From a virus: a stretch of 35,500 nt of DNA. Under the pieces are notes generated by a model. The model saw nothing but the letters and a program-made list of their open reading frames with translations. It was not told where the DNA came from and did not search any database. Below are positions 1,375-19,158 of this stretch, piece by piece (within the stretch, counting starts at the first letter, position 1; each line of letters starts with the position of its first letter). The position numbers and the translations under genes were made by a program. Location: IMG/VR virus record IMGVR_UViG_3300048930_000159, positions 1 to 35,500 of that record. One strand, 5' to 3'.

Positions 1375-1427
1375 GGTAACGGTTTACCCTGCGCGCATTG
1401 TGGTATATTACAGTAATTCCCTGTAAT
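1375..1427 (+). promoter_or_regulatory. Extended -10 promoter with overlapping dyad, upstream of the replication gene
   Basis: TGGTATATT at 1401-1409 is an extended -10 element (TGn then TATATT); the -35 is poor. Directly over it lies a dyad, ATTACAG (1407-1413) and CTGTAAT (1421-1427), with a 7-bp spacer. GCGCATT (1393-1399) and AATGCGC (1425-1431) offer an alternative stem. GGTAA/TTACC (1375-1388) is a second small dyad. The core GTAATGC (1423-1429) is the same as the repeats inside the downstream gene, so the initiator may bind and regulate its own promoter (inference). Confidence 0.45.
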
Positions 1428-1451
1428 GCGCCATAACGAGCGGTAATCGAA

Positions 1452-2024
1452 ATGTACAACAAGCTGTATACGAAGATCCTCGACTCGTCGATATGGCTTG
1501 AACCGAACCCAACACGCATCGTCTGGATTACCTTCCTCGCCGCAATGGACGAGGACGGATTCGCCCAATTCTCGAGCGTCCGCAACCTGGCAAACCGGGC
1601 AATGGTGACAGTTGAGGAAGCGACTGCGGCCGTCAAAACGCTGGAAAGCCCAGACGGTGAATCGGCGAACAAAGAGCATGATGGCCGCAGAATCGAGCGC
1701 GTTGACGGCGGTTGGATGATCCTGAACGCGGGCCTGTACCGGGACATCGTGACCCGCACCGAGAAGCTGCGACTCAACCGGGAGCGGGTCGCCAGACACA
1801 GGGCAAAGAAAGCCGGTAATGCGGTTGGTAATGCACCTGTAATGCAATCAGATGCAGTATCAGAGGCAGTATCAGAAACACTACCGCTCCGTTCTTCTTC
1901 CGTTGGTGCATATAGCACCTCTGAGTCTTTACCAGCGCGTAAGACGTTTTCAACGAAAAATGAAGAAAACCGGCGCGCTGTAGCGGCATTGGCGGCCTCT
2001 GCCGTTAAGGGCGTCCGACAATGA
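1452..2024 (+). CDS. Replication initiator / replisome-organiser-like protein (190 aa)
   Basis: Residues 1-115 have the look of the winged-helix N-terminal domain of phage replisome-organiser proteins: SSIWLEPNPTRIVWITFLAA, then MDEDGFAQFSSVRNLANRAM with VTVEEATAAVKTLE and RRIERVDGGWMILN. Residues about 125-175 are a low-complexity Ser/Ala/Glu-rich linker, and the C-terminus is a short basic helix. In lambda O-type initiators this central linker is where the DNA contains the origin, and the same segment here carries iteron-like repeats (1815-1876). No helicase or loader is visible, so the protein would recruit host replication enzymes. The family call is from sequence feel, not from a search. 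The ATG at 1452 has no clear Shine-Dalgarno. Confidence 0.65.
   Translation: MYNKLYTKILDSSIWLEPNPTRIVWITFLAAMDEDGFAQFSSVRNLANRAMVTVEEATAAVKTLESPDGESANKEHDGRRIERVDGGWMILNAGLYRDIVTRTEKLRLNRERVARHRAKKAGNAVGNAPVMQSDAVSEAVSETLPLRSSSVGAYSTSESLPARKTFSTKNEENRRAVAALAASAVKGVRQ
1815..1980. other. Candidate replication origin: iterons plus AT-richer stretch inside the initiator gene
   Basis: Three copies of (G/T)GTAATGC lie at 1815-1822, 1827-1834 and 1838-1845, spaced 12 and 11 bp, about one helical turn each. They are followed by two copies of GCAGTATCAGA at 1854-1864 and 1866-1876 (12-bp period), a perfect inverted repeat GGTGC-ATATA-GCACC at 1905-1919, and a visibly AT-richer stretch to about 1975 in an otherwise GC-rich genome. 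Iterons in the middle of an initiator gene followed by an AT-rich unwinding region is the layout of oriLambda. Function is inferred. Confidence 0.5.
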
Positions 2025-3939: not shown

Positions 3940-4133
3940 CCGCCAAGCGCCTCACCCCCGAGCAGGAAGCGATCGTCCTCGAGCGCCGCCTCAGATGGCG
4001 CGAGGGACTGCTCAAAGCCCTCGCCGCCGAATTCGGCTGCTCACAGAGCACCATCCGCAGGGTAGAGCGCGAGTACCGCAGGCTGGTCAACAAGCGTCCA
4101 CCCGATTCCCCTGAGACCGAGAGTGGGGCATAA
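3936..4133 (+). CDS. Small HTH protein (65 aa)
   Basis: ATGA overlap with the nuclease gene. Residues about 22-50 (EGLLKALAAEFGCSQSTIRR, then VEREYRRL) form a helix-turn-helix of the Hin/resolvase or sigma-70 region-4 kind, without any other domain. Placed directly before the small terminase, it could be a late regulator or a DNA-binding packaging accessory; I cannot separate these. Confidence 0.6.
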   Translation: MTAKRLTPEQEAIVLERRLRWREGLLKALAAEFGCSQSTIRRVEREYRRLVNKRPPDSPETESGA

Positions 4134-4527
4134 GCGGCGTGTGGGACGCCCGAGCCTCTTCACGGCCGAACTGGCCGCCGCCATCTGTGAGCGCATCTCA
4201 CTGGGCGAGTCGCTGCGCAGTATTTGCCGCGACGAAGGGATGCCGGAAAAGCTAACGGTGCTCCGGTGGCTGTCGCAGGACGATCAGTTTTGTGCCCAAT
4301 ACGCGCGCGCGAGGGATCTCCAGGCCGATACGCACGCCGAGGACATCGTGGATATTTCGGATACCGAGCCCGATCCAGCAAAGGCTCGCGTCCGAATTGA
4401 CGCCCGCAAGTGGTTCGCCTCGAAGGTTGCGGCAAAAAAGTACGGTGATGCGACGTTGCTGAAGCACGCCGACGCGGACGGCAACCGGATTCAGGCCATC
4501 GTCAACGTCACGATTTCGGGGACGTGA
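4123..4527 (+). CDS. Terminase small subunit (134 aa)
   Basis: GTG start at 4123, overlapping the end of the previous gene by 11 bp. The N-terminal half has the HTH layout of Sf6/SF6-type small terminases: GRPSLFTAELAAAICERISL, then GESLRSICRDEGMPEKLTVL and RWLSQDDQFCAQYARARDLQ. The C-terminal part (KVAAKKYGD) is also typical. It recognises the packaging site on concatemeric DNA and hands it to the large subunit, which follows at once. Length is normal for the family. Confidence 0.85.
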   Translation: MGHKRRVGRPSLFTAELAAAICERISLGESLRSICRDEGMPEKLTVLRWLSQDDQFCAQYARARDLQADTHAEDIVDISDTEPDPAKARVRIDARKWFASKVAAKKYGDATLLKHADADGNRIQAIVNVTISGT

Positions 4528-16530: not shown

Positions 16531-19158
16531 GTGGCGATTCAATATGTAACCAACGCGCTCGGTCCGACTAACAGCTCCACGAGCGTTAGCGTCACGCTGC
16601 CCGCGACAGCAGCGGGCGACCTGCTCATCTTCGAGTACGTCCACCGTGGCACGGGCACGGGGACGATTGGCGGCACGTCGGTTACGACCGGCGGGCTGAC
16701 GTGGAACAACAAGCACGACCAGCTATTCGGCGCGTCGGCGTTTTCCGGTCACACGTACTGGACGATCGCGACCGGGGACCATAGCGGGCAGACCGTCACG
16801 GCGTCGAGCCTGACGAACTCATCCGCCGGTATCGTCACGGTCTACTCTGGCGCGCACCAGACTGCGCCGCTCGATGATGCGACGGTCGTCGGTGAACAAA
16901 ACGCCAGCGCCGACGAAGGTCAGGCGGCGATCACCACGGCGACGAACGGCGCGTGGGTTGTCCTCGTCGTCGTCAACTCGCCCGACCTTGCGGTCAGTTC
17001 GCAGGCCGCGGCGAACCTGACGCTGACCGAACGCGCCGAGCGCCTTTCGACGGGCGGCACGGACGCGTCGATCGCGCACGCCTCGGGCGTGCTTGCCACG
17101 GCGGGCAGTTCGGGTGCGTTCACTTGGGCGCAGACGAATGCAGCCTCGGGCTCGTGGGCGTATGCGATCAAGCCCGCGCCGATGGTCGGCTCCGGGTCGG
17201 GCACGATCGCTGCAACTGGCGCGGGCACCGGCACGAGCGTGTCGGTCTATCAGGGCAACGCCTGGATGCCGGGGGCGTGGGCCTCGGGCGCGTGGGCTGC
17301 GGGTGCGTGGGAGGTTACGGCCACAACGCATTCCGGCAGCGGCACGGGCACGATTGCTGCCTCAACGGGCGCAGGCACAGGCACTAAGGCTCGCGCCGGT
17401 ACAGGCGCAGGAACACTCGCCGCTTCGACTGGAAGTGGGGCCGGCCTCAAGGCTCGCAGCGGTGTTGGCGCGGGCACGCTCGCTGCGGCTACTGGCGCAG
17501 GCACCGGCACGTTCTACAGCCAGTTCTACGGCTCGGGTGCGGGCGATCTCGCTGCGCTGACCGGGACCGGAACGGGCCTCAAGGCTCGTTCGGGCCTCGG
17601 TGCAGGCACGCTGACGGCGCTGACGGGCTCGGGATCGGGCGTGGCCGCCGGCCAGTTCTACGGGGCTGGCGCTGGCACGATCTCGCTGCTGACCGGCGCA
17701 GGAACGGGCCTCAAGGAACGCGCCGGGACGGGTGCAGGCGTCATCGCGGCCCTGACTGGCGCTGGCACGGGCACGTCGGCTGGCGTATTCACCGGCAGCG
17801 GTGCCGGGACAATCACCGCGCTGACCGGAAGCGGCACCGGCTCAAGCGTCGAGATGGTCTGCGCGTGGGACCACGGGGCATGGGCACCCGGGGCGTGGGC
17901 GAGCGGTGCGTGGCAATGCGCGCCAGCCACCACGGACGGCACCGGCACAGGCACGATTCCGGCCATGACCGGAAGTGGCACGGGCCTGCGCTCGCACGCC
18001 AGCACGGGTGCCGGGACGATTGCCGCCCTGACGGGTAGCGGGACGGGCGTCGAGGACACTTGGATCCTCGTCAGCTTCGACACGCCGACGACCAACCCGA
18101 CCCCCGGCACGGATCTGCAAGCGTTCCGGGTGCTGGTCCGAAAGACCGACACGGCCAACCCGACGATCGACATCGCGCTGTACGAAGCCGGCGCGTTCGT
18201 CGCAACGCTGGTCAGCGGGACTTCGGTCACCAGCGACACCGGCCAGACTGTCACCGCGAACTGGGACGCGGCCCTGCTGTCCGACTCGACCGGCGCGGAC
18301 GTAGAGTGCTACGTCTACGGCCACTCGAATGGCGTGAGCCAGGTCGAGATCGGCGCAATCGCGTGGGACGTCGCGCAGGGCTTTACGGGTTCGGGTGCAG
18401 GCACAGTTGCGGCGCTCACGGGCACGGGCACCGGCCTGCGTTCGCACCGCAGTACGGGCACCGGCACGATCACAGCTGCCACCGGGGCCGGGACGGGCAC
18501 CAGCGAAGGGCCGCAGACGTGGGTGGGCTCGGGCACCGGCACGTTCCCGGCGCTCGCCGGCACCGGCACGGGCCTGCGCGGCAAGAAAGGATCGGGCACC
18601 GGCACGATCGCCGTCACGGGTACGGGCACGGGCGATTACACGACGACGTGGATCGGCACCGGCGCGGGCGTGCTGGGCATCGTCGTTGGCAGCGGCACTG
18701 GCGCTCGCCCGCACGCCGGTAGCGGCACGGGCACCCTCTCAGCGCTGACCGGCGCAGGCAATGGTCCGCAAACCGGCAAGGTCGGCGGCGACGATCGCCC
18801 GCGCCATCCCGGCTGGAGCAAAAAGCGCGCGACGCTGAAGCTCAAGCGCGAGCGGGAACTCACCGAGCAGATCCGCGACATCTACCGCGAGCTGACCGCG
18901 GACCCGGAAACGGCCGCGCAGGCCGAGACGATCCTGGCACCCGTGATCCCGCCCACGCCCGCGACGGGTGAGACCGAGGCCGCTCGAGTCGAAGCCATCG
19001 AGGCGCGCGCCGAGGCGCTGCGTCGCCGGGCCGATGCGATGGACGCGCGGGCGATCGAGGCTGAAATTGCGCTGCGCGTGCTGTACCGACAACTGCGCGA
19101 GCAGATGATTGCCGACGACTGGGCAGCCATTGAGGCGCTGCTCCCCGAGGTGTTGTGA
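16531..19158 (+). CDS. Large Gly-rich repeat adhesin (875 aa)
   Basis: GTG start at 16531 with a GAGG motif just upstream. Domains: residues 1-216 beta-sandwich (like residues 1-210 of the protein at 10227); residues about 220-755 carry 17 repeats of consensus GxG(A/T)GTIAALTGxGTG joined by basic linkers such as LKARSG and LRSHAST. Two Trp blocks (AWMPGAWASGAWAAGAW near 247-263 and CAWDHGAWAPGAWASGAW near 445-462) interrupt them. A second sandwich (EDTWILVSFDTPTTNPTPGT...) occupies about 508-616. A helical C-terminal module begins at RHPGW (758-762). I read this as a long fibre or tip adhesin; Gly-rich repeats could form a polyglycine-II sandwich or a beta-roll. Repeat number should be prone to change by slippage. 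Confidence 0.7.
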   Translation: MAIQYVTNALGPTNSSTSVSVTLPATAAGDLLIFEYVHRGTGTGTIGGTSVTTGGLTWNNKHDQLFGASAFSGHTYWTIATGDHSGQTVTASSLTNSSAGIVTVYSGAHQTAPLDDATVVGEQNASADEGQAAITTATNGAWVVLVVVNSPDLAVSSQAAANLTLTERAERLSTGGTDASIAHASGVLATAGSSGAFTWAQTNAASGSWAYAIKPAPMVGSGSGTIAATGAGTGTSVSVYQGNAWMPGAWASGAWAAGAWEVTATTHSGSGTGTIAASTGAGTGTKARAGTGAGTLAASTGSGAGLKARSGVGAGTLAAATGAGTGTFYSQFYGSGAGDLAALTGTGTGLKARSGLGAGTLTALTGSGSGVAAGQFYGAGAGTISLLTGAGTGLKERAGTGAGVIAALTGAGTGTSAGVFTGSGAGTITALTGSGTGSSVEMVCAWDHGAWAPGAWASGAWQCAPATTDGTGTGTIPAMTGSGTGLRSHASTGAGTIAALTGSGTGVEDTWILVSFDTPTTNPTPGTDLQAFRVLVRKTDTANPTIDIALYEAGAFVATLVSGTSVTSDTGQTVTANWDAALLSDSTGADVECYVYGHSNGVSQVEIGAIAWDVAQGFTGSGAGTVAALTGTGTGLRSHRSTGTGTITAATGAGTGTSEGPQTWVGSGTGTFPALAGTGTGLRGKKGSGTGTIAVTGTGTGDYTTTWIGTGAGVLGIVVGSGTGARPHAGSGTGTLSALTGAGNGPQTGKVGGDDRPRHPGWSKKRATLKLKRERELTEQIRDIYRELTADPETAAQAETILAPVIPPTPATGETEAARVEAIEARAEALRRRADAMDARAIEAEIALRVLYRQLREQMIADDWAAIEALLPEVL
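17189..18770 (+). repeat. Tandem Gly-rich coding repeats (17 units, interrupted)
   Basis: DNA encoding the 17 GxGxGTIAALTGxGTG units of the 875-residue protein. The units are degenerate in DNA but share GGC-ACG/GGC-GCA runs, so unequal recombination or slippage could add or remove units in frame. A single further copy lies at about 12991-13044 inside the 434-residue adhesin. The block is interrupted by the sandwich domain at about 18052-18380. Confidence 0.75.

Follow-up and report, generated by a model that had tools for sequence, protein, structure and literature searches.

We propose that the linker-encoding part of an initiator gene at 1452-2024 of the virus record IMGVR_UViG_3300048930_000159 is very probably a replication origin, in which short direct repeats (iterons) would be bound by the winged-helix product of the same gene, a neighbouring tract would serve for unwinding and loading, and additional copies of the repeat would allow autoregulation. 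The IMG/VR record was analysed over its entire length of 35.5 kb, hereafter the window. Comparison with related phages shows conservation, at the DNA level, of the putative iterons, the tract and the upstream copies, as well as of their order, and structure prediction shows a winged helix in the modelled initiator. The original prediction of an oriLambda-style origin inside the initiator gene is supported by this comparison, the candidate iterons and the low-stability tract both lying within the gene.

Results

The gene content of the window fits a tailed phage, with an HTH gene at 1109-1306 (HTH_3, E 8e-8) just upstream of the initiator gene, the 190-aa initiator gene itself (ORF 1452..2024, + strand) and a small terminase gene of the Sf6 type at 4123-4527 (E 1.5e-38). 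An 875-aa ORF rich in GSGTGTI/ALTG-type peptide repeats occupies positions 16531-19158. The description of the 190-aa gene as replisome-organiser-like is supported by the modelled winged helix and by the matches of some relatives to replication initiation or primosomal families of PHROGs. In the AlphaFold2 model (37-row alignment from which the relatives L012 and L034 were excluded; mean pLDDT 79), residues ~10-123 are predicted to form a winged helix with a long basic helix that ends at 123, residues 124-168, encoded by the candidate-origin DNA, form a low-confidence linker that is probably disordered, and residues 169-189 form a C-terminal helix. The window protein itself has no Pfam or PHROGs match, and at full length it has no tblastn relative among 50,697 cultured phage records. 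When 37 family members were compared with PHROGs, at most 9 matched any single replication initiation or primosomal protein family, and phrog_678 'replication initiation O-like' was matched by 4 of the 37, the window protein not being among them. The Foldseek search of the PDB returned 862 matches at E up to 10 and none at E 0.001, the best 50 of the 862 being mostly transcription regulators. The Pfam cut-off for Phage_rep_org_N (PF09681) is reached neither by the window protein nor by that of L003, a relative in which a DnaB helicase gene comes directly after the initiator gene (E 2e-84). The window protein lacks a Pfam match to DUF1376 (PF07120) as well as profile similarity to it, neither DUF1376 nor PF09681 turned up when the record of the window itself was searched, and a helicase loader was recognised in none of the neighbouring proteins scanned with Pfam and PHROGs. 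With its 190 aa the window protein is shorter than most family members; it looks truncated behind the linker when set beside most relatives, as if a C-terminal part had been lost.

In the linker of the window, the three reported repeats with a spacing of about one helical turn are present as GTAATGC at 1816..1822, 1828..1834 and 1839..1845 of the + strand, the steps between them being 12 and then 11 bp. Since iterons 1 and 2 are read as G-N-A and iteron 3 is read in another frame, as P-V-M-Q, GTAATGC is not a protein repeat. The heptamer is in mild excess over the 35.5 kb (5 matches vs 2.1 expected, with at least 5 in 4 of 100 shuffles), and 4 of its 5 matches are clustered inside 423 bp. When the gene was reshuffled synonymously 20,000 times with the codon use of the window, three GTAATGC were obtained in none of the reshuffles, and neither in any of them were five CAG at period 6. 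The latter constitute the CAGNNN tract at 1849..1875 of the + strand (CAG at 1849, 1855, 1861, 1867 and 1873), equivalent to CTG every 6 nt on the opposite strand, in which CAG is constant and NNN is ATG, TAT, AGG and TAT. Both copies of the 11-mer repeat that had been noticed, GCAGTATCAGA, were retrieved at 1854 and 1866, mostly within this tract, a membership that the initial list did not mention, and on the + strand of the window GCAGTATCAG occurs nowhere besides these repeats. An AT-richer stretch exists as described and is best placed at 1845..1886 of the + strand, a candidate unwinding/loading element with 55% AT vs 44% in the whole gene; only 2.3% of the nearby 42-mers, taken from the gene and 500 bp on either side, are equally unstable. 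The fate of the ATATA-centred dyad is mixed: it stands in the window as the perfect GGTGCATATAGCACC at 1905..1919, but the exact dyad has a copy in 0 of the 38 other family genes, and some 5+5 dyad is found at the corresponding place in 10 of 34 genes, a count that comes without a null. The cumulative GC-skew minimum was expected near 1.8-2.0 kb and is situated at 431; the skew curve seems to follow gene direction, it is uninformative, and the origin gets no support from it.

Relatives were collected from viral contigs by scans with the window protein, with a three-row alignment and with a DNA pattern, and species genomes were scanned once. The 43 family genes analysed, window included, were reduced to 39 distinct genes (the window and 38 relatives, with a median pairwise identity of 60%) by the removal of 4 genes with a >95% identical N-terminus. 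The loci obtained with the three-row alignment, window-gene copies excluded, have a best-segment identity to the window of 47-66%, and the count leaves out L002/L005/L061, in which another record carries the window gene at 100% identity. The pattern scan yielded 26 loci, of which 11 belong to the window family, 8 of these being copies or loci found before, and 2 contain other initiators (L065, L069). Ten further loci were judged to be chance matches from their proteins (L045, L046, L047, L048, L053, L054, L055, L056, L062 and L066), and L049, L058 and L067 were dropped for want of a long ORF. The relatives L057, L059 and L068 come from the pattern scan alone and do not constitute independent evidence, since a locus must have both a GTAAY core and a run of CAG to match the pattern. 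The genes of L028 and L059 are different initiator genes of one contig, that of L028 lying outside the L059 stretch, and the record concerned (IMGVR_UViG_3300036802_000310) seems to carry two initiators. The scan of species genomes added one relative, L044, in an Acidobacteria MAG; its linker contains three GTAAC cores, but a run of three CAG is absent.

Across codons 105-190 of the 39 genes, GTAAC and GTAAT cores on either strand amount to 124 vs 37 expected when codons are redrawn synonymously from the own usage of each gene (1000 rounds, maximum 52). On the + strand, 50 cores are in frame 0 and 51 in frame 1, the third frame giving a stop, and 51 of the 63 neighbouring core pairs (at most 25 bp apart) are spaced by 10 or 11 bp, approximately one helical turn. 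Such a spacing makes the frame change from copy to copy and is not what a protein repeat kept in frame would produce, and the equal use of both frames together with this spacing points to selection on the DNA. The main refutation named with the original prediction was a lack of conservation of the repeats in relatives, the expectation being that they are kept while codons vary; the prediction withstands this test strongly, both by this excess and by the preference for A at fourfold sites presented below. The core classes, defined on the same sequences as those tested, are GTAAT in the window, in L007 and mostly in L042, GTGAC/GTCAC in L015, L029, L032 and mostly in L036, mixed in L004 and L039, and GTAAC in most other genes. 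Co-evolution of the site with the DNA-binding specificity would produce such class shifts between phages. The clustered array is absent from codons 105-200 in 5 of the 39 genes. It is displaced in two of these, L012 (4001-5395) and L034 (4001-5251), in which a T5orf172/MUG113-like domain (GIY-YIG-type) is inserted behind the winged helix and the array with its tract is situated beyond this domain, three cores being directly followed by the CAG tract at codons 209-223. The array is missing from the gene linker of L030, L035 and L037, so the linker site is not universal.

The last iteron is immediately followed by the tract, frequently by way of the junction GTAAY-N3-ATCAG, which is found in many relatives and at iteron 3 of the window. 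The CAG triplet recurs every 6 nt with at least 3 units in 21 of the 39 genes and at least 5 in 15 of them, both counts including the pattern-selected L057, L059 and L068. A test independent of CAG, for which 34 of the 39 genes were usable, revealed that A occupies 214 of the 275 fourfold sites (78%) in the 14 codons behind the last iteron vs 752 of 4381 (17%) elsewhere; the control, the 14 codons before the first iteron, gives 47 of 234, like the remainder of the genes. Over 33 genes, the median share of nearby 42-mers as weak as the tract is 2.7%. Given xxA|G, C is enriched in the window family (115/183 vs 144/480).

Upstream of the initiator gene, the GTAATGC core announced at 1423-1429 is present on the + strand, and additional GTAAT cores, which were absent from the initial list, are located at 1413 and 1443, the latter (1443..1447, + strand) immediately before the start codon. 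The palindrome ATTACAGTAAT at 1407..1417, likewise absent from the initial list, may be an operator of the iteron class. Further upstream than the other copies, positions 1375-1388 hold GGTAACGGTTTACC, a near-palindrome with a GTAAC core. Within the 120 bp upstream of the 39 genes, 98 cores of the three classes were counted vs 27 expected (300 dinucleotide shuffles, maximum 42), with at least 2 in 26 of the 39 genes, and the upstream class equals the linker class in 22 of the 23 genes with at least 2 cores at both places. The arrangement GTAACGC-N5..9-GTTAC-N-GTAACG precedes 8 family genes. The search of positions 1300-1452 for a sigma-70-like promoter gave no match, and the promoter upstream of the initiator gene is therefore only inferred. 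The presence of an identical core upstream and in the array is as in an autoregulated iteron replicon; iteron plasmids have operator copies for autoregulation. Autoregulation of the initiator, which the upstream core had been thought to allow, is thus supported by the family-wide excess of cores and by their agreement in class, as a function deduced from sequence.

Firmicutes genes of the Phage_rep_org_N type are remotely homologous to the window family, with an hhalign probability of 90 (E 1.5e-6). The set examined comprises 40 distinct genes out of 87 loci, namely 80 of at least 553 scan matches and 7 named phages, and the Pfam Phage_rep_org_N match was checked for L078. At least 2 clustered cores are found in 32 of these 40 genes. 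In the codons behind the array of the 32 genes, an A|G step at codon boundaries occurs at 233 of 512 positions vs 817 of 8551, most frequently with a lag of 6; Ile is encoded by ATA in 47 of 50 codons vs 261 of 743 elsewhere, and fourfold sites end in A in 61 of 73 cases. Core enrichment is absent from the upstream regions of the Firmicutes genes (18 vs 21 expected). Given xxA|G, it is A that is enriched in Firmicutes (129/233 vs 318/817), and the tracts of the window family and of Firmicutes share nothing but the AG step, which reads CT on the opposite strand. A strict host-primase idea, in which the Firmicutes TAG would stand for CTA on the template, was rejected, T not being enriched given xxA|G (66/233 vs 202/817, p 0.27). 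GC content as the sole cause of CAG vs TAG was likewise discarded on account of CAG in the low-GC loci L069 (37.5% GC) and L065 (43.4%), an argument that is weak because their hosts are not identified and both loci were found by a pattern containing CAG. Staphylococcus phi11 contains GAA repeats, and a tract was not seen in Bacillus 055SW001.

Some DUF1376 genes show a similar layout, though hhalign detects no profile similarity between them and the window family (probability 0.2). Nine named phages with such a gene were examined, and here, as in all cross-family comparisons apart from the stated counts, layouts were judged by eye. Two Pseudomonas phages possess CAG runs of 4 and 5 units behind repeats with another core, AACG/AACC, at an uneven spacing of 4-12 bp. 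The DUF1376-type gene ydaU of the E. coli Rac prophage (L070:2450-3520), a prophage with a known origin, oriJ, according to the accessible part of the source (PMC3945230), has a short ACAGAT tract with two CAG only. TCACCT repeats occur in Acetobacter and Leptolyngbya phages and CCTAAC repeats in a Microcystis phage, and a clear tract was not seen by eye in the Rhizobium, Acinetobacter and Bradyrhizobium genes. In a third family, C-rich tracts of pentamers or hexamers are present in six of the seven named actinophages; the seventh, Arthrobacter phage Kukla (L172, 1276-1356), has CCATTAA repeats, unlike the other actinophages, and every repeat lies past the stop codon. In Propionibacterium phage Anatole (L088, 1262-1383), the first GGTAAGC spans the stop codon, and the other three as well as the CCCGTA tract are past it. 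The repeats past the stop codon in these two phages are in DNA without an annotated gene and are free of protein constraint. The linkers of L173, L087, L171, L089 and L174 contain C-rich tracts, e.g. (CCCAA)n, (CCCGA)n and (CCTAAC)n, whose opposite strand consists of G-rich telomere-like repeats that might form G-quadruplexes.

Discussion

We propose that the winged-helix N-terminus of the initiator would bind the three GTAATGC iterons from one side of the double helix, and that the bound array would open the neighbouring period-6 tract of low stability at 1845-1886. The helicase would then be loaded, and the first primers made, at the opened tract, and the protein would repress its own gene through the upstream copies of the core. 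The tract may be a melting element for the initiator, or it may be a single-strand landing site for the initiator or a loader, by analogy with plasmid Rep proteins, described as binding one strand of their unwinding element (PMC4081077, accessible text), and with DnaD, described as binding TnnT repeats in one strand (PMC10201434, accessible text). It may also be a row of priming sites, the start triplet of primase being given, in the text available of the source, as CTG in the case of E. coli DnaG and as CTA in S. aureus and in Bacillus (PMC5429622). This last reading is put forward as a bold case only, since CAG fits CTG, yet the prediction for the Firmicutes TAG failed.

The same repeats could be operators only, by which the protein itself or a Cro/CI regulator controls transcription, with an origin elsewhere. 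The class-matched copies of the core in front of the gene and the HTH gene at 1109-1306 would suit such a function, but a regulatory array would not need an unstable period-6 tract right behind it, and the Firmicutes linker array (32 of 40 genes) exists without upstream enrichment (18 vs 21); we consider this explanation improbable. It is somewhat easier to conceive, while still unlikely, that the iterons alone matter and that the tract is a product of simple-repeat slippage without a role, as the near-perfect repeats in some members (L012, L065) and the fewer than 3 CAG units in 18 of the 39 genes would suggest. The units nevertheless vary inside one tract with CAG kept, as in the window, the tract is directly behind the last iteron even beyond the domain inserted in L012 and L034, and it recurs in other families.

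That an acidic or disordered linker should merely have repetitive codons resembling DNA repeats is very improbable: the low confidence with which the linker is modelled is that of a disordered stretch, but the iterons are independent of frame and mostly 10-11 bp apart, the repeats of L088 and L172 are past the stop codon, and the bias at synonymous sites refutes this protein-level explanation in the main. The hypothesis of a partition site, centromere-like, in place of an origin appears hardly credible. Phage parS loci made of direct repeats beside a replication gene are possible according to the accessible part of one study (PMC7157519), but the relatives of the window gene match families named for replication initiation, and the initiator of L003 is directly followed by a DnaB helicase gene.

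The reading as an origin bound by its own initiator provides a mapped candidate origin for phages with an initiator that Pfam and PHROGs leave unmatched. It would also explain the odd repetitive peptides of phage replication proteins (SEAVSEAV, TETETE, DIDIDI, DTDTDT) as the shadow of a DNA site, and it suggests a sequence rule for placing origins in uncultured phages. A similar two-part layout recurs in distantly related phages, with a tract unit that may follow host lineage, and this cross-family pattern deserves a systematic test; should the unit truly depend on the host, it would help to assign hosts and to understand the contact between phage and host replisome. More speculatively, and with considerable doubt on our part, it can be hypothesised that the phages of several bacterial lineages have one origin grammar, consisting of initiator-specific iterons and then, on a fixed side, a strand-asymmetric short-period tract with a unit set by the host and not by the initiator family. 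The tract would in this case be the place where a factor of the host docks, be it primase, helicase loader or SSB, and CAG every 6 nt, which is CTG, the E. coli DnaG triplet, on the opposite strand, might amount to a ready-made series of sites for the first primers. As to the unit, the window family, whose hosts are not identified, and the named Pseudomonas phages have CAGNNN, Firmicutes have A/T-AGNNN, Actinobacteria have CCCGA, CCCGT, CCCGTA or CCCAA, Leptolyngbya and Acetobacter have TCACCT, and Microcystis has CCTAAC. The lineage rule is not clean by phylum, since Acetobacter (an alpha-proteobacterium) and Leptolyngbya have the same unit, and it has further exceptions in the Rhizobium, Bradyrhizobium and Acinetobacter genes, E. 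coli Rac ydaU, Bacillus 055SW001, Staphylococcus phi11 and Arthrobacter phage Kukla, as described above.

Origins inside initiator genes are established, according to the accessible text of the sources, for lambda and Stx phages (PMC7466680) and for oriL of SPP1 (PMC6316719), and a putative lambda-like origin is mentioned for a Francisella prophage (PMC7924643). The part available of a mycobacteriophage study states that no repeats were found and that an origin in or just before repA was thought likely (PMC7157519). Among the literature matches listed, as far as their accessible text goes and with subscription journals mostly outside the scope, nothing is evidently on the window family, its iterons or a lineage-dependent tract, which is weak evidence of novelty.

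The Firmicutes initiator genes of the PF09681 type (e.g. those of phi11, A500 and Javan240) resemble that of the window by their GTAAC/GTTAC cores followed by a period-6 tract, and differ from it in that the cores are mostly inverted pairs, the tract is A/T-AGNNN in place of CAG and upstream enrichment is absent. Iteron plasmids have in common with the window the iterons, an adjacent repeated unwinding element and a winged-helix initiator, whose binding to the DUE is described as strand-specific; their origin is not inside the gene, and their Rep has two winged-helix domains whereas one is modelled in the window protein (PMC4081077, accessible text). In SPP1, as in the window, direct repeats lie inside the initiator gene, here gene 38, where they are reported to be bound by the initiator gp38, and oriL includes an AT-rich unwinding element (PMC6316719, accessible text). 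SPP1 has a distant second origin, oriR, whereas no third cluster besides those of the linker and the upstream region was seen among the GTAAY cores of the window. The lambdoid O/ori system is described as having an origin that lies midway within the initiator gene, with a row of iterons bound by the initiator and then an AT-rich tract required for unwinding (PMC7466680, accessible text), and the window has the corresponding putative iteron array within the initiator coding sequence and the adjoining tract of low stability. An initiator homologous to O and inverted-repeat iterons of ~18 bp are lacking, the window protein matching no O family and its 7-bp direct cores, 11-12 bp apart, replacing the four annotated 18-bp inverted-repeat sites of lambda; unlike in the window, a run of CAG every 6 nt was not seen by eye in the lambda tract. 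By these comparisons, the putative origin of the window is not a member of the O family, and the best reading of its sequence is that it would work like ori-lambda or SPP1 oriL, with a different initiator family and a different type of iteron.
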